This document shows, piece by piece, positions 1 to 17,546 of a DNA stretch of 64,000 nucleotides. Position 1 is the first letter of the stretch. Each line of letters begins with the position of its first letter. Source of the stretch: Streptomyces sp. NBC_00190. Lineage in GTDB: Bacteria > Actinomycetota > Actinomycetes > Streptomycetales > Streptomycetaceae. The stretch spans positions 186,001 to 250,000 of the forward strand of contig NZ_CP108131.1 of assembly GCF_036203305.1 (NCBI RefSeq). Direction: 5' to 3'. The notes beneath the pieces were generated by a model, which saw only the letters and a program-made list of their open reading frames with translations, did not search any database and was not told the DNA's origin. Both the position numbers and the translations under genes were made by a program.

Positions 1-1204
1 GCGGGCGTGCCCCGAGGGCGGTGACGGCGGCTGCCGCCAAGACGACGGCGAGCAGGGCGAACAGTGCGGGGTATCCGCCGAGGGGTCCGGCCAGGAGGGC
101 GCCGACGAAGGGGGCGAGGGCGGCTGCGGCGTGGGCTGGTGCGCCGAGGAGTCCGGAGAGTCGGCCGTAGTGGGTGGTGCCCCAGCGGTCGGTGACGGCG
201 GTGGCCTGGAGGAGCGTGAGGTTGCCGCGGATCACCCCGGCGAGGACGGATACGGCGACGAGCAGGGCGTACGGCCCGGCCACGGTTGCGAGGGCTGCGG
301 TGGCGAGGGCGCCGAGGGCGATCAGGGTGACGGTGCGGGCGGTCACGCCCAGGTGGCGGGCGAGGGTCGCGTACAGGGTCCGGCCGAGGGTCTGGCCCGC
401 GCCGCCGAGGCCGAGGGCCCATGCCGCCTGCGTGGTGGTGCAGCCGCGGTCGAGGAGGAGGGGGACGAGGCCGATGACGACGGCGTACATCGCGAACGCG
501 GACAGGGCGAAGGTGGCGGCCAGCATCCAGAACGCCCTGCTGCGCACGACTTGCTCGTGGCCGGCGGTGACGTGCGGCGTGCACGGAGGAGCCGGCGGCC
601 ACGGGGCTTTCAGGGCGAGCGCGTGGGCCGGGACGGTCAGGACGGCGAGGATGCCGGCGAGCACCGTGTAGGTGGCGCGCCAGGACATGTGGTCGGCGAG
701 GATCGCGGTCAGGGGTGCGAAGACGGTGGAGGCGAGTCCGCCGGCGAGGGTGACGATGGTGAGTGCGCGGATGTGGTCGGGGGCCCACCAGCGGGTGAGG
801 GCGGCGAAGGCGGGCTGGTAGAAGGTGGCGGCCATCGCCGCCCCCGCGAGCAGCCATCCGGCGAAGAAGACGGGCAGGTTGGGGGCTGCGGCGATCACCA
901 GCAGGCTCAGGACGCCCAGGACGGAGCCTGCGGTCATGACGGTGCGGGGGCCGCGGTGGTCCAGGACGCGGCCGACGTAGATCCCGGCGACGGCAGAGAC
1001 GACGAGGGCGGCGGAAAACGCTGCGGTGGTCGCGCCCCCGCTCCAGCCGGTGTCGGCGGTGATGGCCGCATTGAGGACGGGGAAGGCGTAGTAGACGATG
1101 CCCCAGCTGGTGATCTGGGTGAGGCAGAGGGCGGGCAGGACGGCGCGGGGCCGCGACCGGACCCCCGTCCCGGTCGCGGCCCCGCCGCTTTGAAGGTCGG
1201 TCAC
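1..1204 (-). CDS. MFS transporter (partial, runs off the left edge)
   Basis: About 401 codons are visible with no stop before the window edge. The protein has a succession of hydrophobic helices typical of a 12-helix major facilitator; an early segment reads ITSWGIVYYAFPVLNAAI and is followed by a GIYVGRVLDHRGPR loop, which fits the MFS motif-A position. The GTG start lies one base after the TGA of the upstream flavoprotein gene, so the two are probably translationally coupled. Its place in an ArsR-controlled operon suggests export of an arsenic or related thiophilic compound. It is not obviously ArsJ, since no glyceraldehyde-3-phosphate dehydrogenase partner is present. The family call is firm; the substrate is inference. 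Confidence 0.85.
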   Translation of the reverse strand, partial: MTDLQSGGAATGTGVRSRPRAVLPALCLTQITSWGIVYYAFPVLNAAITADTGWSGGATTAAFSAALVVSAVAGIYVGRVLDHRGPRTVMTAGSVLGVLSLLVIAAAPNLPVFFAGWLLAGAAMAATFYQPAFAALTRWWAPDHIRALTIVTLAGGLASTVFAPLTAILADHMSWRATYTVLAGILAVLTVPAHALALKAPWPPAPPCTPHVTAGHEQVVRSRAFWMLAATFALSAFAMYAVVIGLVPLLLDRGCTTTQAAWALGLGGAGQTLGRTLYATLARHLGVTARTVTLIALGALATAALATVAGPYALLVAVSVLAGVIRGNLTLLQATAVTDRWGTTHYGRLSGLLGAPAHAAAALAPFVGALLAGPLGGYPALFALLAVVLAAAAVTALGARP

Positions 1205-1205
1205 C

Positions 1206-2573
1206 TCAGCAGCCGCCGGAGGAGGCGGGCGCGGCGTCGATGGTGAGGGTGGCCGGGACTGCGCAGCAGCCACCACCGTCGTTCTGCTCGGAGGCTTCCG
1301 GTTCGTCGAAGAGGCCCGCGCCGCCGCAGACTCCGGTCTCGGGGAGGGTGAGTTCGACGCGTTCGGCCGCTTCGTGGTCGCCGGCGAGGTGGGCGGCGAT
1401 GGAGCGGACCTGTTCGTAGCCGGTCATGGCGAGGAAGGTGGGGGCGCGGCCGTAGGACTTCATGCCGACGAGGTAGACGTCCTTCTCCGGGTGGGAGAGC
1501 TCGTTCACGCCGTGGGGGTAGACGGTGCCGCAGGAGTGCTGGTTCGGGTCGATCAGCGGCGCCAGCGCGACCGGAGACTGGAGGCGCTCGTCGAGGCCGA
1601 GGCGGAGTTCGTCCAGGAAGCTGAGGTCGGGGCGGAAGCCCGTCAGGACGATGACCCGGTCGACCGGGTCCAGGCGGCGGCCGTCCTCACCGACGAGGAC
1701 CAGGCGGCCGTCAGCGTCGCGCTCGAAGGCGTCGGTGCGGAAGCCGGTGACGGCGTCGGCGTAGCCGCCGTCGACGGCGGCCTTCGCGGCGAGGCCGAGG
1801 GCGCCGCGGGCGGGCAGCTGGTCGGCCTCGCCGCCACCGAAGGTGGAGCCGGACATCCCGCGGCGCAGGATCCACACCGCGTGCGTGCCCTGGTCGTCCT
1901 CGGACTTGGCGAGGTCGGCGAGGTAGGCAAGGGCCGTGAAGGCCGAGGCGCCCGAGCCGATGACCGCGGTGCGCTTTCCGGCGTAGCGGGCGCGGACGGC
2001 GGGGTCCGTCAGGTCGGGGACGCGGTAGGTGATGCGGTCGGCGGCGGCCTTCTCGCCGAGGGCGGCCAGTCCGCTGCCGCCGGCGGGGCTCGGGGTGGAC
2101 CAGGTGCCGGAGGCGTCGATGACCGCGCGGGCCAGGATCCGGTGCTCGCGGCCGCTGGCACTCGCGTAATGGACGACGAAGGGCTGGGCCTCGCGGTCGG
2201 CGTCGACGATGCGGTCCCGGCCGGTACGGGAAACGCCGGTGACGGTCGCGTCGTAGCGCACCTGCTCGCTGAGGACGTCGGCCAGCGGCTGGAGGTAGTG
2301 GGTCGCCCAGTCCCCACCGGAGGGGTAGGTGTCCTCGGCGGGCTTGACCCATCCGGTCGGGGCGAGGAGCTTCTCGGCGGCCGGGTCGACGACCTCGCCC
2401 CAGCGCGAGAACAGCCGCACGTGGGCCCACTCGCGCACGGCGGCCCCCGCAACCGGGCCGGCTTCCAGGACGAGGGGTTCCAGGCCGCGGTCGACGAGGT
2501 GGGCTGCCGCCGCGAGTCCGGCGGGGCCGGCCCCGATGACGACGACGGGCAGCTCGGTGGTGGTCTCGCTCAT
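1206..2573 (-). CDS. FAD/NAD(P)-dependent oxidoreductase with Cys-rich C-terminal tail
   Basis: A 455-residue flavoprotein. Residues about 10-40 form the FAD-binding Rossmann motif GAGPAGLAAAAH, and a second nucleotide motif, GSGASAFTAL, lies near residue 206, giving the two-dinucleotide-fold layout of flavin monooxygenases and FAD-dependent oxidoreductases. The C-terminal 50 or so residues leave the catalytic fold and carry five cysteines (VCGGAG, GGGCCAVP and a terminal GGC), echoing the Cys-Cys peptide encoded just upstream. The ATG is preceded by GGAG at good spacing. It lies 51 bases after the peptide gene and one base before the MFS gene, so the three form an operon. A redox step on arsenicals or another thiophilic metalloid is inferred, not shown. 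Confidence 0.8.
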   Translation of the reverse strand: MSETTTELPVVVIGAGPAGLAAAAHLVDRGLEPLVLEAGPVAGAAVREWAHVRLFSRWGEVVDPAAEKLLAPTGWVKPAEDTYPSGGDWATHYLQPLADVLSEQVRYDATVTGVSRTGRDRIVDADREAQPFVVHYASASGREHRILARAVIDASGTWSTPSPAGGSGLAALGEKAAADRITYRVPDLTDPAVRARYAGKRTAVIGSGASAFTALAYLADLAKSEDDQGTHAVWILRRGMSGSTFGGGEADQLPARGALGLAAKAAVDGGYADAVTGFRTDAFERDADGRLVLVGEDGRRLDPVDRVIVLTGFRPDLSFLDELRLGLDERLQSPVALAPLIDPNQHSCGTVYPHGVNELSHPEKDVYLVGMKSYGRAPTFLAMTGYEQVRSIAAHLAGDHEAAERVELTLPETGVCGGAGLFDEPEASEQNDGGGCCAVPATLTIDAAPASSGGC

Positions 2574-2624
2574 GACATGTCTCCGGGTCTTCGTGCAGGC
2601 AGGGGGTGGGCGGGGCTTCGGTGC

Positions 2625-2828
2625 TCAGCAGCAGCCGGCGCCGGTGGCGACGGCTTCGCGCTCGGCCTGCGGGTCGCAGCAGGCTCCGGCTGCTTCCGCG
2701 CTCTCGCTGGTGCCACAGCACGGTGAGGACTGGGCGGGCGCCACCTCGGTGGGCTGTGTGGGGGCGGCGCCGCAACAGGAAATCGCCGCCTCGGCGCGGT
2801 TCGGGCTGGGGGTGACCGGCTCGTTCAT
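2625..2828 (-). CDS. Small peptide with four Cys-Cys pairs, probable metal(loid)-binding
   Basis: A 67-residue protein starting MNEPVTPS, with GGGAG six bases before its ATG. A longer in-frame reading from 2960 crosses the promoter and has no ribosome site. Four adjacent cysteine pairs sit at about residues 18-19, 37-38, 50-51 and 66-67; the chain ends in the last pair. The linkers are rich in Ala, Pro, Glu and Ser with almost no hydrophobic core, so it probably has no stable fold without ligand. It heads the leftward operon and lies behind ATAGAC/GTCTAT boxes shared with the arsR promoter. It resembles a metallothionein-like arsenic or heavy-metal carrier in composition only; I do not recognise a named family. 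Confidence 0.7.
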   Translation of the reverse strand: MNEPVTPSPNRAEAAISCCGAAPTQPTEVAPAQSSPCCGTSESAEAAGACCDPQAEREAVATGAGCC

Positions 2829-2854
2829 GACGACTCCCTGGTGTTTCGAAGTTT

Positions 2855-2910
2855 GTCTATGGCTTACGTGATCAGCATGGCATCTGTATCGATAGACGTC
2901 AACATAGACA
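2855..2910. promoter_or_regulatory. Divergent promoter region with probable ArsR operator boxes
   Basis: GTCTAT at 2855-2860 is inverted relative to ATAGAC at 2892-2897 and 2904-2909. The 12-mer GTCAACATAGAC (2898-2909) occurs again exactly at 3481-3492 in front of arsR. Sharing between two promoters of the same cluster suggests a common operator for the local ArsR protein. The boxes lie between the leftward Cys-Cys peptide operon and the rightward broken monooxygenase. Confidence 0.55.
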
Positions 2911-2934
2911 TTCATCAAATTCACGAAGATCGTG

Positions 2935-3452
2935 ATGGCGCACGCGGAAGCCGTCGTCATCGGAGGCGGGTAGTCGGGCCTGGCGTCCGCGCATGTCGTT
3001 CGGCGGGGATCCGGACCGCTACCCGCACCGGGACGAGGTCGTCACCTACCTGACCGCCTACGCCGCCCGACGGCGGGCCGGCATCCGTACGGGGACAGCG
3101 CGTGACCGCGGTCCGAGGGCCGCCCTCACCGCGGGCGCCCCGACCGGCGCCAGATGTTCACCGGCCTCGACAGGGAGCGGACCACCTGGGCCGACGGCAC
3201 CACGGAGCGGCTGGACGCACCGGTCCTGGCCACCAGCCACCGCCCCCACCCGCCCTACCTGGCCGGACTCGATGGCGCCCTCGACCCGCCGGAGGCCCCC
3301 GCCACCGCAACGGGGGCCTCCTCCGTCCATCCAGCCCCGGTCTCCGCCGGGCTGGAGTGGCAGCGCAGCCTGTCCTCGAACACACTGCGCGGGGTCGGGA
3401 GGGATGCCGCCCGGACGGCCCGTCGGCCTGGCTCCCCATTTGGCCCACACCT
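2935..3452 (+). pseudogene. Decayed flavin-containing monooxygenase (ArsO-like)
   Basis: The reading from ATG 2935 gives MAHAEAVVIGGG, an FAD-binding motif, and then meets TAG at 2971 where the family has a glutamine (GGGQSGLA). A second frame resumes with FGGDPDRYPHRDEVVTYLTAYA, and a third from about 3154 gives MFTGLDRERTTWADGTTERL, LATSHRPHPPYLAGLDGALD and GLEWQRSLSSNTLRGVGRDA. These are in the correct order for a group-B flavin monooxygenase, but the chain lacks about half of the usual 350-370 residues and needs several frameshifts. It sits directly behind the shared operator boxes, so it was probably once part of the arsenic cluster. Confidence 0.7.
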
Positions 3453-3470
3453 GACCCCCTGCCGCCTTAG

Positions 3471-3502
3471 TTCGACGTGTGTCAACATAGACGTATGTCG
3501 AA
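3471..3502. promoter_or_regulatory. Imperfect palindrome overlapping the arsR start, probable autoregulatory operator
   Basis: TTCGAC at 3471-3476 and GTCGAA at 3497-3502 form the ends of a 32-base imperfect palindrome that contains the shared 12-mer GTCAACATAGAC. The ATG of arsR (3495) lies inside the right half, and no ribosome site is visible upstream, so the transcript may be leaderless, with repressor binding over the start point. Confidence 0.5.
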
Positions 3503-3863
3503 TGCGAAGGTTCTGCCGTTGCTGGAGCCCCACGTCGTCGCGGCCTGCTGCCCGCCGCTGAACGAACGTCCCATGTCGGCCGAGGAGGCCGAGGTCGCGG
3601 CGAAGATGTTCAAGGCCCTCGGTGATCCCGTGCGCCTGCGCCTGTTCTCCGCCGTCGCCTCCCACGAGGGCGGGGAGGCGTGCGTGTGCGACATCTCGGA
3701 CGTCGGCGTCTCCCAGCCGACCGTCTCGCACCACCTGAAGAAGCTCAAGGAGGCTGGCCTGCTGTCCTCCGAGCGCCGGGGGACGTGGGTGTACTACCGG
3801 GTCGAGCCGTCTGTGCTGGCCGCCATGGGCGCGCTGCTGTCCGGCGCTGCGAAGGCGGCGTGA
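3495..3863 (+). CDS. arsR: ArsR/SmtB family metalloregulator
   Basis: A 122-residue winged-helix repressor. Residues about 30-45 contain the MFKALGDPVRLRLFSAVA helix, EACVCDISDVG near residue 60 matches the metal-binding box ELCVCDL of the family, and VSQPTVSHHLKKLKEAG is the recognition helix. An N-terminal Cys-Cys pair (VAACCPP) gives extra thiolate ligands, as in several As/Cd sensors. ATG 3495 is preferred over GTG 3477, which falls within the operator. The next gene starts within its stop codon (GTGA overlap), so arsR and the arsN remnant formed an operon. It probably represses both itself and the leftward Cys-Cys peptide operon. Confidence 0.9.
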   Translation: MSNAKVLPLLEPHVVAACCPPLNERPMSAEEAEVAAKMFKALGDPVRLRLFSAVASHEGGEACVCDISDVGVSQPTVSHHLKKLKEAGLLSSERRGTWVYYRVEPSVLAAMGALLSGAAKAA

Positions 3864-4129
3864 CCGGCGTGCGGATCGAGGAGCTGCTGCCCGAGCATGC
3901 CGAGCAGGTGCTGGGCATCTACCAGGCTGGGATCGACGAGGGCAACGCGACCTTCGAGACGCAGGCCGCTGAGTGGGCCGTGTTCGACAAGGCCAAGCTG
4001 CCCGGCCACCGCTTCGTCGCGGTCGACGACGGTCGGGTGCTGGGCTGGGTCGCGGCGAGCGCGATTTCGGACCGATGCGCGTACGCGGGCGTGGTCCTGT
4101 TGGAGCGTCGGAGCCCGCGGATCAGCTGA
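3860..4129 (+). pseudogene. Truncated GNAT N-acetyltransferase (ArsN-like)
   Basis: The GTG start overlaps the arsR stop. The 80 or so residues that follow are a good match to the N-terminal half of the phosphinothricin/arsinothricin acetyltransferase family (IYQAGIDEGNATFET, then HRFVAVDDGRVLGWVAAS and DRCAYAGVV). After about residue 80 the match ends abruptly, nine unrelated residues follow and a stop is reached. The acetyl-CoA-binding R/Q-x-x-G-x-G/A loop and the rest of the fold, normally to about 165 residues, are gone. The break lies next to the stop of the convergent DinB gene, which suggests a deletion or insertion joint near 4090-4125. Confidence 0.75.
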
Positions 4130-4705: not shown

Positions 4706-5746
4706 TCAGGCGCCGAGGAGTTCTGCGATCTCGCGGGTGCTCTGGCGGGCTGTGCGGCCGACGCCTATGAGGGTGGCGGAGGCGGGGCCCGTCCAGTCGC
4801 CGTAGCCGAGGAGATGGATGCGCGGGTCGGCGACGGCGCGGGTGCCCTCGGTCGGAATGCGGCCGCCCTCGGTGCGCAGGCCCAGCGGGGACAGGTGCGA
4901 GAGCGTGGGGCGGAAGCCCGTGCACCAGATGATCGCGTCGCAGGGCCAGATGCTGCCGTCGGCCCAGCGGGCTCCGTCGGCCGTCAGGCTGTCGAACATC
5001 CGGTGGTCCGGGATGAGTCCGGCGTCGCGGGCGGCTCGTACGGGCGGGACGGCGACGATGTCGCCGAGGTCCGAGATGCGGGGTCCGCCGGACTGGACAC
5101 GCCTGGTGGCGAGTTCGAAGAGGGTGCTGCCGTCGATTTCGTCCGGGAGGTAGCGGGCGGGCCGCCGGGTGACCCAGCGGACGGTGGCGTGCGGGGTGAG
5201 GTCGGCTGCGATCTGGGCGCCGGAGTTGCCGCCGCCTACGACGATGATGCGCTGTCCTGCGTAGTCCCGGGGGCTGCGGTAGTCGACCGTATGGTGCTGG
5301 CGGCCCTGGAAGTGCTCACGGCCGGGGACGGCGGGCAGGAACGGACGCCACCAGGTGCCAGTGGCGCTGATCAGTGCGCGGGAGGTCCACGTTCCGCTGT
5401 CCGTGTGGACGCGGAGCAGCGGTGACTCGTCGTGGACGCCGGCGACGCGGACGCCGCGCTGGACCGGGAGCTCGTACCGCTTCGCGTAGTCGGCGAGGTA
5501 CTCCAGTACGTGGGAGACGTCCGGGAACGTCTTGCCCTCCTGGTGCGGCATGAGCCGGCCGGGCAGGGAGGAGTAGGCGGCCGGGGAGAACAGATGCAGC
5601 GAGTCCCAGGGGTGCTGCCAGGCTCCGCCCGGGGTGGCCTGGGCATCGAGGATGGTGAAGTCGATGCCCGCCCGGCGCAGGTAGTAGCCGGCGGCGAGCC
5701 CTGCTTGGCCGCCGCCGACCACCACCACATCCGCGTGCTGCGTCAT
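4706..5746 (-). CDS. arsO: ArsO-type flavin-dependent monooxygenase
   Basis: A 346-residue protein with the FAD motif VVVVGGGQAGLAAGYYLRRA at residues about 6-25 and the NADPH motif IIVVGGGNSGAQIAADL near residue 160. Between them WDSLHLFSPAAYSSLPG is characteristic of the ArsO subgroup found in arsenic operons. WCTGFRPTLSHLSPL near residue 285 is the usual monooxygenase signature close to the C-terminus. Its ATG overlaps the stop of the aquaporin gene (ATGA), so the two are translationally coupled. ArsO proteins are linked genetically to arsenic resistance; the exact reaction is not settled. Confidence 0.85.
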   Translation of the reverse strand: MTQHADVVVVGGGQAGLAAGYYLRRAGIDFTILDAQATPGGAWQHPWDSLHLFSPAAYSSLPGRLMPHQEGKTFPDVSHVLEYLADYAKRYELPVQRGVRVAGVHDESPLLRVHTDSGTWTSRALISATGTWWRPFLPAVPGREHFQGRQHHTVDYRSPRDYAGQRIIVVGGGNSGAQIAADLTPHATVRWVTRRPARYLPDEIDGSTLFELATRRVQSGGPRISDLGDIVAVPPVRAARDAGLIPDHRMFDSLTADGARWADGSIWPCDAIIWCTGFRPTLSHLSPLGLRTEGGRIPTEGTRAVADPRIHLLGYGDWTGPASATLIGVGRTARQSTREIAELLGA

Positions 5747-6537
5747 GCGGTGGGCTGCCCGCTGTTGGTCTTGCCGCGCATGAAGATGACCGCGACCAGG
5801 GCCAGGCCCACGACCGTGCCGATCAGCTGCATGCCGATAAAGCCGGCGACCGAAGCCGGGGCGATGCCGGCGAAGGTGTCGGTGAACGCACGGCCGATCG
5901 TGACCGCCGGGTTGGCGAAGGAGGTGGAGGAGGTGAACCAGTACGCGGCGCCGATGTACGAGGCGACGGCCACGGGCGCGAAGCGGAGGCGGTCGGTGCG
6001 GGCCAGGCCGAAGATCAGCAGGATCAGGCCGGTGGTGGCGACGACCTCGCCGAGGAGGAGATTCCCGGCGGAGCGGTCGTGGGTGGACCACTTGACCAGC
6101 GGTTGGCCGAACATCGCGTCCGCCAGGATCGCGCCCGCGATGGCACCGACGATCTGCGAGGGCACGTACACGGCCAGCTCGCGGGCGTTGACGCCGGCGC
6201 CACCGCGGCGGGCGGTCCACCACTCGGCCAGCGTGACGGCGGGGTTGAAGTGCGCCCCGGAGACGGGGCCGAGGAGGGCGATCAGTACAAAGAGCCCGAA
6301 CACCGTGGCGGTGGAGTTGGCCAGGAGCTGGAGCGCCACGTCCCGGGTCAGCTCGGTGGCCTGGATGCCGGAGCCGACCACGACCGCCACGAGCGCGGCC
6401 GTGCCGACCAGTTCGGAGGCGGCCCGGGCGAGGAGCGGGGTGCGGGGTGGGGTCGCGCCGGGCGCGGGCTGGGGAGCGTCGACGGCTATGACGGACTCCG
6501 CTGCGGGGGCTGTGCCGAAGGGCTCGGTGGCGGTCAA
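5743..6537 (-). CDS. MIP-family channel (AqpS-like aquaglyceroporin)
   Basis: A 264-residue membrane protein of the major intrinsic protein family. Both half-helix signatures are present: SGAHFNPAVTL near residue 95 and TSFANPAVTIGRAF near residue 205, separated by the expected three membrane spans. The first 35 residues are a Pro/Ala-rich cytosolic extension. In an ars operon without an arsenite pump, such channels (AqpS of Sinorhizobium is the studied case) let arsenite produced by ArsC leave down its gradient. No ArsB or Acr3 is seen in this window, which supports that role. It lies between arsR and arsO in a tight leftward operon. Confidence 0.88.
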   Translation of the reverse strand: MTATEPFGTAPAAESVIAVDAPQPAPGATPPRTPLLARAASELVGTAALVAVVVGSGIQATELTRDVALQLLANSTATVFGLFVLIALLGPVSGAHFNPAVTLAEWWTARRGGAGVNARELAVYVPSQIVGAIAGAILADAMFGQPLVKWSTHDRSAGNLLLGEVVATTGLILLIFGLARTDRLRFAPVAVASYIGAAYWFTSSTSFANPAVTIGRAFTDTFAGIAPASVAGFIGMQLIGTVVGLALVAVIFMRGKTNSGQPTA

Positions 6538-6577: not shown

Positions 6578-6892
6578 CTACGGGCAGGACCGCTTGAGGT
6601 TCGCTTCGGCGGTGATGCGCGCGGTCTGGGCGAGGCCGGCGAACTGACCGGCGAGCGATTCGATGACTTCCGGGCGCAGGCGGTAGTAGGTGAACCGTCC
6701 GCATGGCTCCGTCTCCACGACCCCGGCCTCGCGCAGCACCTTCAGGTGGTTCGAGAGGTTCGTCTGCTTGGCACCTGTCTCTTCCACGAGGTGGGTGGTG
6801 CAGAGCGTCTCCTTGGCCAGGAGGGTCACGATCTGGAGCCTGAGCGGGTCGGCCAGAACCCGGAGCAGATCAGTGTCGACTGACGTCATCAT
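6578..6892 (-). CDS. arsR: ArsR family regulator of the arsR-aqpS-arsO / arsC region
   Basis: A 104-residue winged-helix protein starting MMTSVDTDLLRVLADPLRLQ. The helix-turn-helix reads TNLSNHLKVLREAGVV. The DNA-binding region carries KETLCTTHLVEETG in place of the canonical ELCVCDL box, so sensing may use Cys-31, the Cys in EPCGRF near residue 64 and the Cys third from the C-terminus (RSCP), a layout closer to CmtR and corynebacterial ArsR than to E. coli ArsR. It lies 40 bases upstream of the aquaporin gene and divergent from arsC, so it probably controls both directions. It differs clearly from the arsR at 3.5 kb. Confidence 0.88.
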   Translation of the reverse strand: MMTSVDTDLLRVLADPLRLQIVTLLAKETLCTTHLVEETGAKQTNLSNHLKVLREAGVVETEPCGRFTYYRLRPEVIESLAGQFAGLAQTARITAEANLKRSCP

Positions 6893-6948: not shown

Positions 6949-6963
6949 TTGAAGGAAGAGACG

Positions 6964-7383
6964 ATGTCCTCCACCCCGCTCGCATCCGTGCTGTTCGTCT
7001 GCATCCACAACGCGGGCCGCTCCCAGATGGCGGCCGGGTTCCTGCGCCACCTCGCCGGCGACCGCGTCGAGGTCCGCTCCGCCGGCTCCATGCCCGGCGA
7101 GCAGATCAACCCCTCCGCTGTCGCCGCCATGGCCGAGCTGGGCATCGACATCTCCGACCAGAAGCCGAAGGTCCTCACCCCCGAGGCCGCCCAGGCGTCC
7201 GACTACATCATCACCATGGGCTGCGGCGACGCCTGCCCGTACTTCCCCGGCAAGACCTACCTCGACTGGCAGCTCGACGACCCGGCCGGGCAGGGCGTCG
7301 AGGCCGTCCGCCCCATCCGCGACGAGATCAAGGGCCTCATCGAGGGCCTGATCGCCGAGATCGACGCCAAGTCGAAGGCTTGA
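6964..7383 (+). CDS. arsC: Arsenate reductase, low-molecular-weight phosphatase type
   Basis: A 139-residue ArsC of the LMW-PTPase fold. The P-loop [18 protein letters not shown] (CX5R, Cys near residue 14) is at the N-terminus, and [15 protein letters not shown] near residue 84 supplies the two further redox cysteines used in thioredoxin-coupled arsenate reduction. A long Asp-containing loop ([11 protein letters not shown]) follows. GGAAGAG at 6954-6960 points to ATG 6964 rather than an earlier in-frame ATG. It converts arsenate to arsenite, which the aquaporin could release. The broken thioredoxin reductase starts within its stop codon. Confidence 0.93.
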
Positions 7384-7510
7384 TCATCGTCATAGGCTCC
7401 GGCCCCGCTGGATACACAGCCGCCCTCTACACCGCCCGCGCACAGCTGAACCCCCTGCTGTTCGGCAGCTCCATCTTCGTCGGCGGCTCAGTCACCACGA
7501 CCACCGAGGT
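7380..7510 (+). pseudogene. Truncated thioredoxin reductase (ArsT-like)
   Basis: The reading from TTG 7380, overlapping the arsC stop, gives [21 protein letters not shown], the exact N-terminal FAD motif of bacterial thioredoxin reductase, then [12 protein letters not shown], which corresponds to the next conserved block but is missing about ten residues. After about residue 45 the similarity ends; the CxxC active site and NADPH domain are absent. A full gene would be about 320 residues. In actinobacterial ars operons a thioredoxin reductase (arsT) commonly follows arsC, so this is a remnant of that gene. Confidence 0.8.
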
Positions 7511-7889
7511 GCTCGTGTGTCCGTCTCCGGCGTGCTGTTCAACCGGCCGAGCACCACCTGTGCGGCTCGGATCATCGTGCCTGCTCACGGCCGAACCCCA
7601 CCGCCTCGGGGTCGGTCACCCGCACCTTACCGCCGCCCACCTCTTCCTGACCGGGCAACGGAGGAGCCCAAAAGCCCCTGCCAGGGCCTGACCCTCTACC
7701 AGGCCCTGGACCTCCTCCAACACCTCATCGCCACCTGGACCGGCACCTGCCCCACCTGCCGACAACCCACCGCACAGCAACCCCACGACACCAGCTAACA
7801 AAGCACTACTAGCCCCCTCCCCGCGCCGCGGACAGACACGCAGTCGTCGGCACACGCATGACCGGGCCGTAGCGGGTTACACGCCGTCA
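7511..7889. other. No confident gene
   Basis: A reading from about 7517 to 7798 on the + strand ends with a CPTCRQ motif and a short helical stretch (LYQALDLLQHLIATW), but it has no ribosome site and I do not recognise it. The rest looks like decayed sequence between the arsT remnant and the next gene. Confidence 0.4.
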
Positions 7890-9689: not shown

Positions 9690-10670
9690 ATGGGCACCGC
9701 CACACGAGTACCGCAGCGCAGCGAGGTCGAGGCCGTGGAAGCCGAGTTGCGGACGGAGGGCGCCGACCTCTCCGGCGAGGAGGCATGGGCCGCACTGTGC
9801 CGGTACGGCGGCTGGAGCCTCGTACGGGACTCTTTCATACGCTTCCGCTACGCCGACGGCTTCAGTCACTCCCGGGCCCTCGCCCTGCAGACGGTCCTGT
9901 CGATCGTCCCGTTCGCCATAGCGGTGATAGGACTGTCCCGTGCGCTGCACACCGAGGCCATCGGGCAGATCGCCGAGCTGACGATCCGGCGGATCGTCAG
10001 CGGCCCCGGCCAGGACGTCGTGGACGACGCCCTGCGGCAGAGCCACCACCGGGCGGGAGACGGCGGCCGGGCGGCGCTGTGGCTGGGGCTGCTGTTCTCG
10101 ATCGCCAACGTCACCACCGCACTGTGCCAGGTAGAGCGCGGCGCCAACCGCATCTACGGTGTGGAACGCGACCGCCCGTTCCTCCACAAGTACACCCGCG
10201 GGCTGGTGATGGCGCTGCTGGCAGGGCTTCCCCTCGGCCTCAGTTTCGCCGTCACCGTCCTCGGCGCCGACCTGAGCCTCGCCGTGACGCAGGTCTACCA
10301 CCTCGGCCCGACCTCGCACCGCGTGTGGAACCTCCTGCACTGGCCCGTCGGGATCCTGCTGGCCGTGATCGCCACCAGCGTCATCTTCCGCCGCTCCCCG
10401 CGGCGCACGCAGCCGGGCTACACGTGGCTCGCCTTCGGCGCCACCGTCCACCTGGTGCTGTGGCTCGCCGCGACGTGGGGGCTGAGCCTGTACGTCGGGG
10501 CCGGTAGCTCCTTCGCCACGGTGTACGGGCCGCTCAGCGCGCTCGTGTCGCTGCTGCTGTGGTCGTATCTCACCTCGCTCGCACTCTTCCTGGGCCTCTC
10601 CTTCGCGGCCCAGCTGGAAGCCGTACGGGCGGGGGTGGCCGACCCGATCACTGCGGACCCCGGCGTCTGA
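9690..10670 (+). CDS. YihY/BrkB family integral membrane protein
   Basis: A 326-residue protein with a soluble N-terminal 50 residues and then about six membrane spans. FSHSRALALQTVLSIVPFAIAVIGLSRALH and the later WNLLHWPVGILLAVIATSVIF and YGPLSALVSLLLWSYLTSLALFLG segments match the YihY family fold. AAGGAGG at 9671-9677 precedes the ATG. YihY proteins have been proposed as lipid transporters or former 'RNase BN'; the flanking lipid phosphatases and kinase fit a lipid-handling role. A second YihY protein lies at 27.7 kb. Confidence 0.85.
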   Translation: MGTATRVPQRSEVEAVEAELRTEGADLSGEEAWAALCRYGGWSLVRDSFIRFRYADGFSHSRALALQTVLSIVPFAIAVIGLSRALHTEAIGQIAELTIRRIVSGPGQDVVDDALRQSHHRAGDGGRAALWLGLLFSIANVTTALCQVERGANRIYGVERDRPFLHKYTRGLVMALLAGLPLGLSFAVTVLGADLSLAVTQVYHLGPTSHRVWNLLHWPVGILLAVIATSVIFRRSPRRTQPGYTWLAFGATVHLVLWLAATWGLSLYVGAGSSFATVYGPLSALVSLLLWSYLTSLALFLGLSFAAQLEAVRAGVADPITADPGV

Positions 10671-10721
10671 AGCGGTGTACCCCGCCGTCCGCTCCCCCGC
10701 AAGGAAAGGAACCCACCGACC

Positions 10722-11528
10722 ATGACAGAGCGTTCCACCCGGCCCCGGTGGCATTTCCTCGCGCGGCTCGTCTCCGGCCGCGCCGGGGCCGACGCGCGCT
10801 TCGGTGTGCGGCTGGTGACGACGTCGGCCGCCACCGCCGTGGCGGCCGTCCCCTTCTCGCTCGCGCTGGTCCTGGTGGAATCGCGGTGGGCTCCGCTGCA
10901 CCGCCTCGACCAGGGCACCGCCGAGCGGCTGCACCGTTCCGCTCTCGGTCATCCCGCCTGGGTGCGCGTGCTCGATTTCCTCACGCACGTCGTGTGGGGT
11001 CCGTTGACCATGCGCCTTCTGGTGGCCGCGGTCGTGGTGTGGCTCGTGTGGCGCCGCGCCCTGCGGCTGGCCGCCTGGGCGGCCGTCACAGCGACTGTCG
11101 GAGGGCTCGTGGGCCTGCTGGCGAAGAACGCGGTCGAGCGCGCTCGTCCGCACCTGCCCGATCCTGTCGCCCACGCGCCCGGATTCTCCTTCCCCTCCGG
11201 CCACGCCATGACGGCCACCACCTCCTGTGCCGTCCTGCTTCTGGTCCTGCTCCCCCTGGTGCCGCGGGCGTGGCGTCCGCTGCCGTGGGCCCTCGCCGCG
11301 GCCACGGTGCTCGGCGTCTGCTACACGCGGGTCGCGCTCGGTGTGCACTGGGTGAGTGACGTCGTCGGAGGGTGGCTGCTCGGCCTGGCGGTCGTCACCG
11401 GGACCACCCTCGCCTTCGAGGCGTGGCGCGGTGACATGGGCCGCCGACGCACCACGCCCGCCCAGGGCCTGGAACCCGAGATCGTGACGGCCGCTCCCGA
11501 AGCCCCCGCGGACGTACGCAGGGGGTGA
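10722..11528 (+). CDS. PAP2 family phosphatase
   Basis: A 268-residue membrane phosphatase with the three signature blocks KNAVERARPHLPD, SFPSGHAMTAT and TRVALGVHWVSDVVGGW. Six spans are predicted from the hydrophobic runs. A charged N-terminus (TERSTRPRWHFLARL) lies in the cytosol and a 35-residue polar tail follows the last span. AAGGAAAGG precedes the ATG. It is the third gene of the lipid group and converges on the SpoIIE gene with only 15 bases between stops. Likely substrates are phosphatidate, phosphatidylglycerol phosphate or undecaprenyl pyrophosphate. Confidence 0.88.
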   Translation: MTERSTRPRWHFLARLVSGRAGADARFGVRLVTTSAATAVAAVPFSLALVLVESRWAPLHRLDQGTAERLHRSALGHPAWVRVLDFLTHVVWGPLTMRLLVAAVVVWLVWRRALRLAAWAAVTATVGGLVGLLAKNAVERARPHLPDPVAHAPGFSFPSGHAMTATTSCAVLLLVLLPLVPRAWRPLPWALAAATVLGVCYTRVALGVHWVSDVVGGWLLGLAVVTGTTLAFEAWRGDMGRRRTTPAQGLEPEIVTAAPEAPADVRRG

Positions 11529-11543
11529 GCCCGTAGCGGGCAG

Positions 11544-13979
11544 TCAGCCGACCTGGATGCCGATGACACAGGTGTCGTCGTCCGTGTCGGACCGGCTTTC
11601 GGCGAGGAGGCGGTCCAGCTGCCGGTCCAGGTCCCCGACGCAGGCGGCCGCCGCGTTCACGAGGTGGCCGAGCGAATCCTGGACCGAGGAGTCCCTGCGC
11701 TCCACCAGCCCGTCCGTGAACATCAGCAGGGTGTCGTCCGGTTCGAGCCGCACCTCCCGTTCGGTGTACGTCACATCGGCAAGCGCTCCGAGGAGCAGGC
11801 CCTCGATGAGCGGGAAGGCCTCGGCCTCGCCGCCGCGGACGAGTACGGGCGGCAGGTGCCCGGCGCGTGCCCAGCGCATCACCCTGGTGCCGGGGTCGAA
11901 GAGCCCGCAGACGGCGGTGGCGGTCACGTGCTTGGCCAGATGGTGGGTGACCGTGTTGAGCCACGACAGCAGCTGGGCGGGCCCCGCTCCCGTGACGGCG
12001 AGGCCGCGCAGGGCGTTGCGCAGGACGACCATGCCGGTGGCGGCCTCGATCCCGTGTCCGGCGACGTCGCCCACGGAGAGCATGATCAGCCCGGAGGGCA
12101 GGACGACGGTGTCGTACCAGTCGCCGCCGACGAGCGACTCGGTCTCCGCCGGCCGGTAGCGGACGGCGACCCGCAGTCCCGGTGCCTCGATGGCGGGCGG
12201 GGAGGGGGGCATGATCGCGTGCTGGAGCTGCAGGGCGAGTCGGTTGCGTTCGGCTGACTCGGCTGCGGTGTGGGCGAGTTGGTCCCGCGTGGCGGCCAAG
12301 GCGACCTCGGTCCAGTGCTGGGCGGAGATGTCCTGGTAGGCGCCACGGACGGCGTGGAGCCGCTGGTCGGCGTCGAGGACGGGCTCGGCGACGACACGGA
12401 TGTGGCGGGTGATCCCGTCGGCCCTCTGGAGGCGGAAGTCGACCGAGGCGGGCCGGCGGTAGCGCAGCACCGCCCGCAGGAACCGGCCCAGGGCGGCGGA
12501 GTCGTCGGAGTGGGCGTAAGCGGGCAGCTCCCGCAGCGGTACGGGCGGGGCGGTGGCCGACAGTCCGTGCAGCGCGTACAGCTGGGCGTTCCAGGTGATC
12601 TCGCCGGTGACGAGGTTCTCCTCGAAGCCGCCGATCCGGCCCAGGCGCTGGGCGTGCTGGAGGAGGTCGGCCAGTCGAGCCGTCTCGTCCTCGACGCGCC
12701 AGATCAGCAGCACGGCCGCGCCGTGCCGACTGACGCTGATGTCCGCGACCGAGGTGAGGGGGATCTGGTCGACGAGCGCGGTCAGGCGCATGCGCTCGGC
12801 ACGGAAGGGCTCGCCCGTCGCATGGACCCGCTCGATGATGTCGAAGAGCCCGTTCTCGCCGGCGGCCGTCGGATAGGCCTCCAGCAGCAGCGCGCCATTG
12901 ACGTCGCCGCGCGGGCGTCCGGCAGGGTCCACGAACCGGCTGCTGGCGTGGCGGATGCGGAAGTCGGTGAGCCGGCCCTCGGGGTCGATCAGCGGGGTGA
13001 GGACCACGGCCGGATCGTGCAGTCCTTCGGCGAGGTCGGTCAGTTCCGCGACGTCCGGGAGAACCGCGTCGAGGACGGCGGGATCGCCCGTGGGCGAGGC
13101 GTCCATGGTGCGGGCGCAGAGTTCCGCGAGGGCCTCGATCTGACGCTCGATCTGCGGGGGCTGCGGTGCCAGCGGCCGCGGCCAGCAGATCTCGAGGACA
13201 CCGTGTATCCGTCCGCCGGTCCCGGCGGGTACGGCCATCCGTCCGCCGTCGGGCCACTGGAGGTGGCCGATCGAGGGAAGTCCGTCGCGCTTGAGGCGGG
13301 CGATGCCGACCAGGCGCCGCTCCCGCAGCGCGAGGCGGGCGACGGTCGAGACGCCCGGCGGTACGTGGCGCCAGCGCGCGGCCTCCCCGGGCGGGAAACC
13401 GGCGTGGCCCGCGAGTGCCAGGGAGCCGTCCGGCGCGGCGGTCCACACGGCGACGGCGATCGCCCCCAGGGGTTCGAGGGCGTTCGTCAGGAGGGACCCG
13501 GCCACCGCCTGGGTGTCGTCGGCGGCCAGTACCCCGCTCTCGGCGGTGCGCAGCCGTACCGCCACCGTGGTGGACTGCTCGGACGGCGGGGAGCGCCGGG
13601 ACGGTCCGAGCGTGCCGGTGCGCTCGACGAATTCTGCGGCGACCTCGCTGACGTGGTCGCGGGCCGCCTGGTTGACGATGTCGGCGGCGAGTTCGAGCGG
13701 GGTCATCCCGGCCTCGCGGCACAGCTCGTCGAGCTGGCGTGCCGCCGCGGCGGGGGTGCAGCTCAGCTGTCCGATCAGGATGCCTTTGGCCAGTTCGACC
13801 AGGGCCCTGCCGTCGGCGGCCGCGTGTGCTTCCCGTACTTCGCGGCGCAGCCGTTCGACGGTGGCGACCAGGCGTCCCAGCGGCGTCGGCGCCTGGTGCG
13901 GGATCGCGTTCCGGGCGGGCTCCTCGACGCCCGTTCCCGGCGTGCGCGCGTCGCCGTGCTGTGTGTCGCGGGTACCCAC
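11544..13979 (-). CDS. SpoIIE-type phosphatase with ANTAR-like, GAF and PAS sensor domains
   Basis: An 811-residue protein if GTG 13979 is used; AGGAAGGAG lies 11 bases before it, while the longer reading to 14045 has a Pro/Arg-rich N-terminus with no ribosome site. Residues about 25-80 carry an ANTAR-like helical segment (VELAKGILIGQLSCTPAAAARQLDEL). Residues about 130-270 look like GAF, followed by two PAS-like regions, one with FRLQRADGITRHIRVVAEP. The C-terminal 220 residues are a PP2C SpoIIE phosphatase with GDWYDTVVLPSG, VGDVAGHGIEAA and DTLLMFTDGLVERR. Such proteins dephosphorylate anti-anti-sigma (STAS) factors; two STAS genes lie nearby. Confidence 0.88.
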   Translation of the reverse strand: MGTRDTQHGDARTPGTGVEEPARNAIPHQAPTPLGRLVATVERLRREVREAHAAADGRALVELAKGILIGQLSCTPAAAARQLDELCREAGMTPLELAADIVNQAARDHVSEVAAEFVERTGTLGPSRRSPPSEQSTTVAVRLRTAESGVLAADDTQAVAGSLLTNALEPLGAIAVAVWTAAPDGSLALAGHAGFPPGEAARWRHVPPGVSTVARLALRERRLVGIARLKRDGLPSIGHLQWPDGGRMAVPAGTGGRIHGVLEICWPRPLAPQPPQIERQIEALAELCARTMDASPTGDPAVLDAVLPDVAELTDLAEGLHDPAVVLTPLIDPEGRLTDFRIRHASSRFVDPAGRPRGDVNGALLLEAYPTAAGENGLFDIIERVHATGEPFRAERMRLTALVDQIPLTSVADISVSRHGAAVLLIWRVEDETARLADLLQHAQRLGRIGGFEENLVTGEITWNAQLYALHGLSATAPPVPLRELPAYAHSDDSAALGRFLRAVLRYRRPASVDFRLQRADGITRHIRVVAEPVLDADQRLHAVRGAYQDISAQHWTEVALAATRDQLAHTAAESAERNRLALQLQHAIMPPSPPAIEAPGLRVAVRYRPAETESLVGGDWYDTVVLPSGLIMLSVGDVAGHGIEAATGMVVLRNALRGLAVTGAGPAQLLSWLNTVTHHLAKHVTATAVCGLFDPGTRVMRWARAGHLPPVLVRGGEAEAFPLIEGLLLGALADVTYTEREVRLEPDDTLLMFTDGLVERRDSSVQDSLGHLVNAAAACVGDLDRQLDRLLAESRSDTDDDTCVIGIQVG

Positions 13980-14072
13980 GGTGCTACCGGCTCCTTCCTG
14001 GGGCGGTCTTGGCCTCGGCCAGGACGACCGGGACGGGCGGGGCATCCGCGGACAGTGCCCGCGGGGCGGCGG

Positions 14073-17546
<3,474 letters not shown>

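Follow-up and report, generated by a model that had tools for sequence, protein, structure and literature searches.

A Paired-Cysteine Peptide Encoded Ahead of an Arsenic-Linked Flavoprotein in Streptomyces

Results

A Peptide Gene in an arsR-Linked Module

The window, by which we mean the whole analyzed stretch of 64,000 nucleotides from Streptomyces sp. NBC_00190, corresponds to 186–250 kb of an 8.6-Mb contig (NZ_CP108131.1) in a genome of 8.9 Mb. At its left end, a peptide with four Cys-Cys pairs, a flavoprotein and a major facilitator superfamily (MFS) exporter are encoded in this order on the minus strand, and arsR is placed divergently on the plus strand. The peptide is a real gene family, and its linkage to arsenic resistance (ars) genes is strongly supported. 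Its core is also found fused to arsenic enzymes, which suggests that the peptide is likely a real, unnamed carrier part of arsenic defence. A reading to which we give slightly better than an even chance is that the module is controlled by ArsR and acts against trivalent arsenic, with the peptide as a thiol carrier that feeds the flavoprotein and the MFS protein as the exporter of the product.

The first-pass annotation had pointed out the joint occurrence of four features, and all four are in the sequence. The peptide gene (2625..2828, minus strand), the first of the operon, encodes 67 residues with CC at 18/19, 37/38, 50/51, and 66/67. The flavoprotein gene (1206..2573, minus strand) encodes 455 amino acids of the PF13738/PF07992 type; its Cys-rich C-terminal tail (1209..1328, minus strand) contains C416, C436, C437, and C455. 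The ArsK-related MFS gene (1..1204, minus strand) is cut by the left edge of the window, and its GTG start lies one base past the flavoprotein stop (TGA-G-GTG), the one-base coupling described by the first-pass annotation. The ArsR repressor gene is at 3495..3863 (plus strand). The 12-mer GTCAACATAGAC is common to both arms: it starts at 2898 in the leader of the peptide-flavoprotein-MFS operon (2898..2909, no strand) and at 3481 at arsR.

Distribution and Conservation of the Peptide

A search of 5.8 billion proteins found 47 matches including the peptide's own sequence, and all named ones are from Streptomyces. A profile search, which found 165 proteins at E ≤ 10 (120 of these listed), extends the family to Kitasatospora, Nocardiopsis, Actinoplanes, and many metagenome-type entries. 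In the searches of Streptomyces, family, class, and phylum genomes, at most 15 to 30 candidates were scored per genome, and misses are possible. Strong matches are present in at least 9 of 392 Streptomyces genomes; three others have weak matches only, and the module is absent there. Among 200 genomes of the family, at least 16 have the peptide: the own genome, five of one other genus, and ten of another. Among the candidates scored in the class-wide search (394 genomes), the own genome alone gave a strong match, and the same genome was the only one with a match among those scored phylum-wide (203 genomes). When plasmids were searched with the peptide or one relative as the query, no match was found at E ≤ 0.01.

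Weak matches in Streptomyces (three genomes and one second match, E 9e-5 to 9e-4) and in the class (ten genomes, E 7e-4 to 8e-3) were dropped as chance. Their flanks (L025–L028 and L087–L096) contain no flavoprotein or arsR match, and they are counted neither among the nine genomes nor among the loci below. The own genome has eight further weak matches, with E 0.01 to 7.4.

With three further Streptomyces loci (L013–L015) from named genomes, 27 distinct Streptomycetaceae loci were available, one of which (L105) is a fusion with ArsM. In all 27, arsR is divergent upstream; a second flavin gene is interposed in four of them (L009, L012, L013, and L016). The flavoprotein gene is directly behind the peptide gene in 26 of them, the exception being L111/L126. 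The first-pass annotation had proposed to look for this co-occurrence; among these 27 confident loci with visible context, no homologue without a link to arsR or the flavoprotein was seen.

The peptides of 24 loci (all but L105, L109, and L111) were aligned. Each of the 24 retains all eight cysteines, and lengths range from 59 to 83 amino acids. Over the 66 pairs of the 12 Streptomyces peptides, the median ratio of nonsynonymous to synonymous differences (pN/pS) is 0.60 in frame, and the two alternative frames give 0.94 and 1.64. When the 12 peptides of two further genera are included (276 pairs), the corresponding values are 0.73 versus 1.00 and 1.40. The reading frame of the peptide is therefore under selection. 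A chance frame in GC-rich DNA is excluded, because homologues exist, the pN/pS difference is specific to the frame, and the cysteines are kept. At L109 (genome G824), the match to the flavoprotein is broken in two, by a frame difference or a gap, which could reflect damage to this copy or an error of assembly.

Most often, the core reads CCGT-x9-CC-x14-CC; AG precedes the second pair and an AK motif follows it. In wider relatives, the first Cys pair is sometimes missing or replaced by CGC.

The peptide matches no family in Pfam and NCBIfam. Two known classes were considered and rejected. There is no ArsD domain in the peptide nor among the Pfam and NCBIfam matches of its 47 relatives, and no known metallothionein domain among the Pfam matches of the relatives. 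The sole Pfam matches of these 47 are weak: Galaxin_repeat in 18 (best E 0.0015), Inovirus_G7P_1 in three, and DUF2028 in one. A database entry (P0011) is titled "ACGX-repeat peptide", and the same title is seen at P0076 in the profile search. Neither a description of the peptide nor a name for the flavoprotein was found in the literature covered by our search, outside which many subscription papers lie.

The Shared Box and the Regulator

The exact 12-mer GTCAACATAGAC has two copies in the whole genome, both at the module. Among Streptomyces flavoprotein loci, 29 of 30 have it, the window's own locus counted, and so do 21 of 23 further Streptomyces loci. The reversed sequence, used as a control, was found in neither the genome nor the two sets. 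The arsR copy is part of a 32-bp element, TTCGAC..GTCAACATAGAC..GTCGAA (3471..3502, no strand), which has palindromic flanks, overlaps the arsR start codon, and is similar in relatives. The promoter scan found no sigma-70-like site.

The ArsR of the window is an ArsR/SmtB winged helix protein with arsenic-type cysteines (NF033788, 93.2 bits; cut-off 55). Its nearest solved structure is 6j0e, "Arsenic responsive repressor ArsR". It has an N-terminal CC (18, 19) and a CVC (63, 65), and these four cysteines are kept in 22 of 22, 14–15 of 15, and 32–33 of 33 members of three ArsR groups (at least 45% identity).

The Flavoprotein Is the Core of the Module

A search at E ≤ 1e-60 finds the flavoprotein in 220 of 392 Streptomyces genomes; across the class, 121 of 394 genomes have it, representing 39 of 137 genera with Streptomyces included. 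It is also seen in Proteobacteria and Firmicutes. The peptide, with strong matches in far fewer of the same Streptomyces genomes, is therefore accessory, and the flavoprotein is core.

Out of 124 given loci, 122 flavoproteins were aligned. Cys348 in the HSCG motif (codon at 1530..1532, minus strand) and Cys416 are C in 122 of 122, Cys436 in 120, and Cys437 in 121. Cys455 is conserved in only 44. The flavoprotein was rejected as an ArsO, since it scores 55.6 bits to NF040505 against a curated cut-off of 425, while the window's own ArsO scores 507.9. Among its best 25 of 32 NCBIfam matches, ArsO scores best, no curated cut-off is exceeded, and there is no ArsV model; no ArsV model is seen either among the matches of four proteobacterial relatives (E ≤ 1e-8). 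The solved structure closest in sequence is 7a76 (36 bits), which was deposited as thioredoxin reductase.

From other genera, 80 flavoprotein loci, a part of all places listed, were fetched with about 3 kb on each side. An arsR-like match is present in 77 of them and is divergent upstream in 69. The tail GVC..CC is seen in 78, an ArsN1-like match in 49, an arsC match in 41, and a match to MIP channels in 11. A peptide core with three CC pairs is seen in none of the 80.

The window MFS protein has ArsK (NF033733) as its best match and closest named relative, at 149.5 bits with its copy cut at the window edge, below the family cut-off of 400, and on this score it was rejected as a member of that family. 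The MFS partners of Shinella and Afipia score 204 and 200 bits. Of 30 Streptomyces flavoprotein loci, 22 have an MFS match, in some cases a partial one, no more than 900 bp downstream. On the other arm, an ArsN1-like match is present in 21 of the 24 peptide loci given (of 27), if the truncated window copy is counted, and it is near full-length in most relatives examined.

Plasmid Loci Beyond Actinobacteria

The flavoprotein is present in 130 plasmid records, among which 21 places were opened, four of them without annotation. On a Rhizobium rhizogenes plasmid, arsR and the flavoprotein gene are followed by an annotated arsK with an overlap of four bases. The order arsR, flavoprotein, MFS is also seen in Shinella, Afipia, and Hydrogenophaga; in Rhodococcus, a divergent arsR precedes the flavoprotein-MFS pair. 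Cellulosimicrobium has arsR, the flavoprotein, and a GNAT gene, with no adjoining MFS gene. An annotated ArsN1 gene adjoins the flavoprotein gene or lies near it on plasmids of Pseudomonas, Cytobacillus, Paenibacillus, and Bacillus. On plasmid pSSFR1 of Streptomyces sp. FR-008 (L208, NZ_CP009803.1), the flavoprotein-MFS module is at 10294–14564 beside trxB, arsC, arsR, arsB, and arsO. In the database records examined, this plasmid included, the flavoprotein has generic names.

On plasmids of Staphylococcus and Cytobacillus, small proteins of 73 and 69 amino acids (L213, 4583–4804, and L219, 6275–6484) are encoded beside the flavoprotein. They have no Cys pairs and look alike by eye (INHA..L...YF).

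Fusions and Cys-Pair Extensions

The peptide core also occurs within larger proteins. In three partial database sequences (P0106, P0108, and P0109 in our profile search; one is from JGI), the core is followed by the start of a flavoprotein. For P0106, the one compared by a tool, this flavoprotein part has 70% identity over 56 amino acids to the window flavoprotein. One genome (G821, loci L105/L120) encodes an arsenite methyltransferase (L105, 763–1656) whose C-terminus is formed by the core. This is a full-length ArsM, with 290.6 bits to NF008823 (cut-off 263). The fusion gene stands where the peptide gene would otherwise be, with arsR on one side and a flavoprotein gene directly behind it. 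Among 14 genomes searched in the same genus, the four other positive ones do not have the core within ArsM.

Nine of the 80 flavoproteins encoded in other genera have an in-frame N-terminal extension bearing Cys pairs, a single pair in six and several in three. Such extensions are likewise seen on five Firmicutes plasmid flavoproteins and one from Roseomonas. A C-terminal tail of the approximate form CCGG..ACC..DA.AK..GCGC, picked by eye, is present in eight of the 21 plasmid loci, all Proteobacteria. It resembles the peptide core to a degree that is no more than suggestive. A carrier role of the core is in keeping with its fusions to the flavoprotein and to ArsM.

History of the Peptide Gene

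On a tree of 59 flavoproteins, the presence of the peptide needs six changes in the most parsimonious case, and at least four are forced by supported branches. The leader of the peptide gene, from the box to the first codons, was compared with the flavoprotein leader of loci lacking the peptide (9 × 19 loci, after two of the 30, having no near box, were dropped). The mean identity is 76%, versus 59% for the controls (flavoprotein leaders in peptide loci and shuffles). This indicates that the same promoter region precedes operons of both kinds, and that what sets them apart is the presence of a first gene, the peptide gene. The difference could have arisen through loss, gain, or both.

Other Genes of the ars Island

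Beyond what the first-pass annotation described, the window contains a truncated ArsN1-like gene, a decayed second flavin gene, and the remainder of the ars island, which reaches to about 7.4 kb. The ArsN1-like N-acetyltransferase gene (3860..4129, plus strand) has a GTG start that overlaps the arsR stop. It was rejected as a complete NF040503 member, being truncated and scoring 38.8 bits against a cut-off of 170; its L209 relative, with 138 bits, is also below the cut-off. The remnant of the second, ArsO-like flavin gene lies between the peptide gene and arsR, at about 2935..3426 (plus strand). It was found by tblastn with the L013 protein, in three segments of 64% identity over 98 amino acids (E 2e-36), 51% over 70, and 63% over 30. 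At the corresponding position, the relatives L012, L013, and L016 have open frames of 352–364 amino acids.

Farther into the island are an ArsO flavin monooxygenase (4706..5722, minus strand; NF040505), a MIP-family channel (5743..6537, minus strand; PF00230, 79.2 bits), and a second ArsR-type regulator (6578..6892, minus strand; NF033788, 83.1 bits, cut-off 55). An ArsC-like arsenate reductase of the LMWPc type is encoded at 6949..7383 on the plus strand (TIGR02689, 94.2 bits, and TIGR02691, 84.7 bits, each below its cut-off). Right behind arsC, a short open reading frame (7380–7691, plus strand) starts like a thioredoxin reductase, and then the similarity seems to be lost. Judged by eye, it looks like a trxB/arsT remnant. 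No arsM was recognized next to the module in the window.

Discussion

Comparison with Known Systems

The flavoprotein often occurs with arsR, an ArsK-like MFS gene, and an ArsN1-like acetyltransferase gene, and may therefore be a counterpart of the published pair of ArsV and an exporter, to which it is likened by gene arrangement and by descriptions. ArsV, a flavin monooxygenase for MAs(III)/Sb(III), oxidises methylarsenite, ArsW extrudes methylated arsenic, and ArsK, an MFS exporter of arsenite and methylarsenite, exports trivalent forms, according to passages of PMC10080717, PMC9144182, PMC11719878, and PMC12607644. A flavin enzyme and an MFS exporter gene under ArsR are common to these systems, to the window, and to the plasmid relatives, and in Rhizobium a family member stands beside an annotated arsK. 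In these passages, no peptide partner is mentioned for the published pair. The first-pass annotation could match its module to no named ars system; the flavoprotein-MFS-arsR core, however, resembles the published ArsV and exporter system in its arrangement. The flavoprotein-exporter part is probably of a known kind. What is new against the literature searched is the putative paired-cysteine carrier, free and fused.

The trxB, arsC, arsR, arsB, and arsO genes on the FR-008 plasmid are, we presume, the published arsRBOCT cluster of that strain, in which case the flavoprotein-MFS pair falls outside its five named genes. The window likewise has ArsO, ArsC-like, and ArsR genes, whereas the flavoprotein of the module is neither ArsO, by its score given above, nor the product of the adjacent trxB.

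ArsD has Cys pairs at 12–13, 112–113, and 119–120 and transfers As(III) to ArsA, as stated in PMC12607644. The peptide shares with ArsD the small size, the vicinal Cys pairs, and the setting in an ars operon. It differs in having no ArsD match in Pfam and NCBIfam, and in its partner, which is a flavoprotein, while that of ArsD is an ATPase. As for ArsM, one relative has the peptide core as its C-terminal tail, whereas the window peptide itself is no enzyme.

A Carrier Feeding a Flavin Enzyme

The first-pass annotation had guessed that the peptide collects an arsenical, the flavoprotein converts it or hands it on, and the MFS protein exports it. This interpretation is partly supported, and the functional guess is plausible. 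The likeliest course of events, drawn from gene order, boxes, conservation, linkage, and fusions, is as follows. ArsR would keep the two divergent promoters closed via the GTCAACATAGAC box and release them once its Cys pairs bind a trivalent arsenical. The peptide would be made first, as a mostly unstructured thiol carrier, and its core would take the arsenical. From there, the arsenical could move onto the flavoprotein's Cys tail (C416 and C436–C437) and then to Cys348, the sole invariant cysteine of the enzyme core and the likely acceptor. With NAD(P)H and flavin adenine dinucleotide (FAD), the flavoprotein would change the oxidation state of the arsenical, probably from trivalent to pentavalent, and the ArsK-like MFS protein would export the product. 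Where intact, the ArsN1-like enzyme of the arsR arm, which is truncated in the window, might acetylate amino-acid arsenicals. Organoarsenicals such as methylarsenite are most likely the target, a suggestion that comes from the family name of the ArsN1-like neighbours.

It can further be speculated that the CCGT-x9-CC-x14-CC core is a mobile arsenic-carrier domain. Free, at the N-terminus of the flavoprotein or at the C-terminus of ArsM, it might act as a swinging thiol arm that channels methylarsenite from its source enzyme or pool to the oxidising enzyme, so that no free toxic compound builds up. We hold this wider idea tentatively, as possible rather than probable.

Several facts weigh against the carrier reading. 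The majority of the sampled Streptomyces with the flavoprotein are without the peptide, which must therefore be dispensable for the core function. The exporter is optional, as an MFS match is behind the module in just seven of 15 non-Streptomyces peptide loci and 23 of the 80 loci from other genera. The exact 12-mer is present in only 10 of these 15 and three of these 80, and it is absent from the ArsM-fusion locus. Outside Actinobacteria, ArsR is not in every case the nearest regulator: Pseudomonas, Cytobacillus, Lysinibacillus, and Paenibacillus have one of the MarR type there, and Roseomonas has one of the PadR type; ars genes are near in four of these five loci, and none was seen in Roseomonas. 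The ArsM fusion was seen once, and the fusions to the flavoprotein come from partial sequences that show no gene context. The proteobacterial C-terminal tails are only weakly alike to the core (hhalign probability 44%, E 2e-4), and among the 21 plasmid tails, five beat all of their own 200 shuffles and the remainder do not.

Alternative Roles of the Peptide

Two alternatives compete most closely with the carrier reading: a passive sink of thiols, and a dithiol carrier that the flavoprotein reduces. As a sink, the peptide would hold thiophilic ions like a metallothionein and so protect the cell, with no hand-over to the flavoprotein. Eight cysteines in 67 residues, the free variation in length, and the repeated gain or loss of the gene on the flavoprotein tree are all in keeping with this. 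A sink, however, needs neither a place directly ahead of the flavoprotein, which nearly all peptide loci show, nor a core joined to flavoproteins and ArsM, nor the fixed core spacing with conserved non-Cys residues. We consider a sink rather unlikely.

Alternatively, the flavoprotein might be a thiol-disulfide reductase and the peptide its dithiol substrate, serving like thioredoxin as an electron carrier for arsenate reduction. The vicinal pairs would be able to cycle as disulfides, the structure nearest to the flavoprotein was deposited as thioredoxin reductase, and arsC is present in the window island and in about half of the loci from other genera. On the other hand, 39 of the 80 loci are without an arsC match, and the partners in other phyla are exporters and ArsN1. 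The residues of the flavoprotein conserved at >98% include no CxxC or CxxxxC, and Cys348 is single in the core. These facts make electron transfer less likely still than storage.

Because Cu(I) and Hg are generally bound by Cys-pair peptides, a role for another thiophilic metal (Cu(I), Hg, or Cd), with arsenic control being incidental, can be imagined. It is very unlikely, considering the CC and CVC cysteines of ArsR, its arsenic-responsive nearest structure, and the arsC, arsO, ArsN1-like, ArsK-like, and ArsM neighbours. That the peptide is the precursor of a modified, secreted natural product, as its short length, its conserved C-terminal core, the adjacent oxidoreductase and exporter, and the title "ACGX-repeat peptide" might suggest, is hardly credible, since no maturase or protease gene was recognized among the neighbours examined and the core also ends a full-length ArsM.

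Implications

To our knowledge, a single chaperone route for trivalent arsenic has been established, from ArsD to the ArsA pump. If the carrier reading is true, the peptide would be a second type of chaperone, one that serves a flavin enzyme in both free and fused form, and would show how a highly thiol-reactive toxin is handled between enzymes. The peptide is also a ready candidate for a genetically encoded Cys-pair binder. As the flavoprotein is present in more than half of the Streptomyces genomes searched and goes under generic names, naming it would fill a gap in the arsenic genomics of Actinobacteria.

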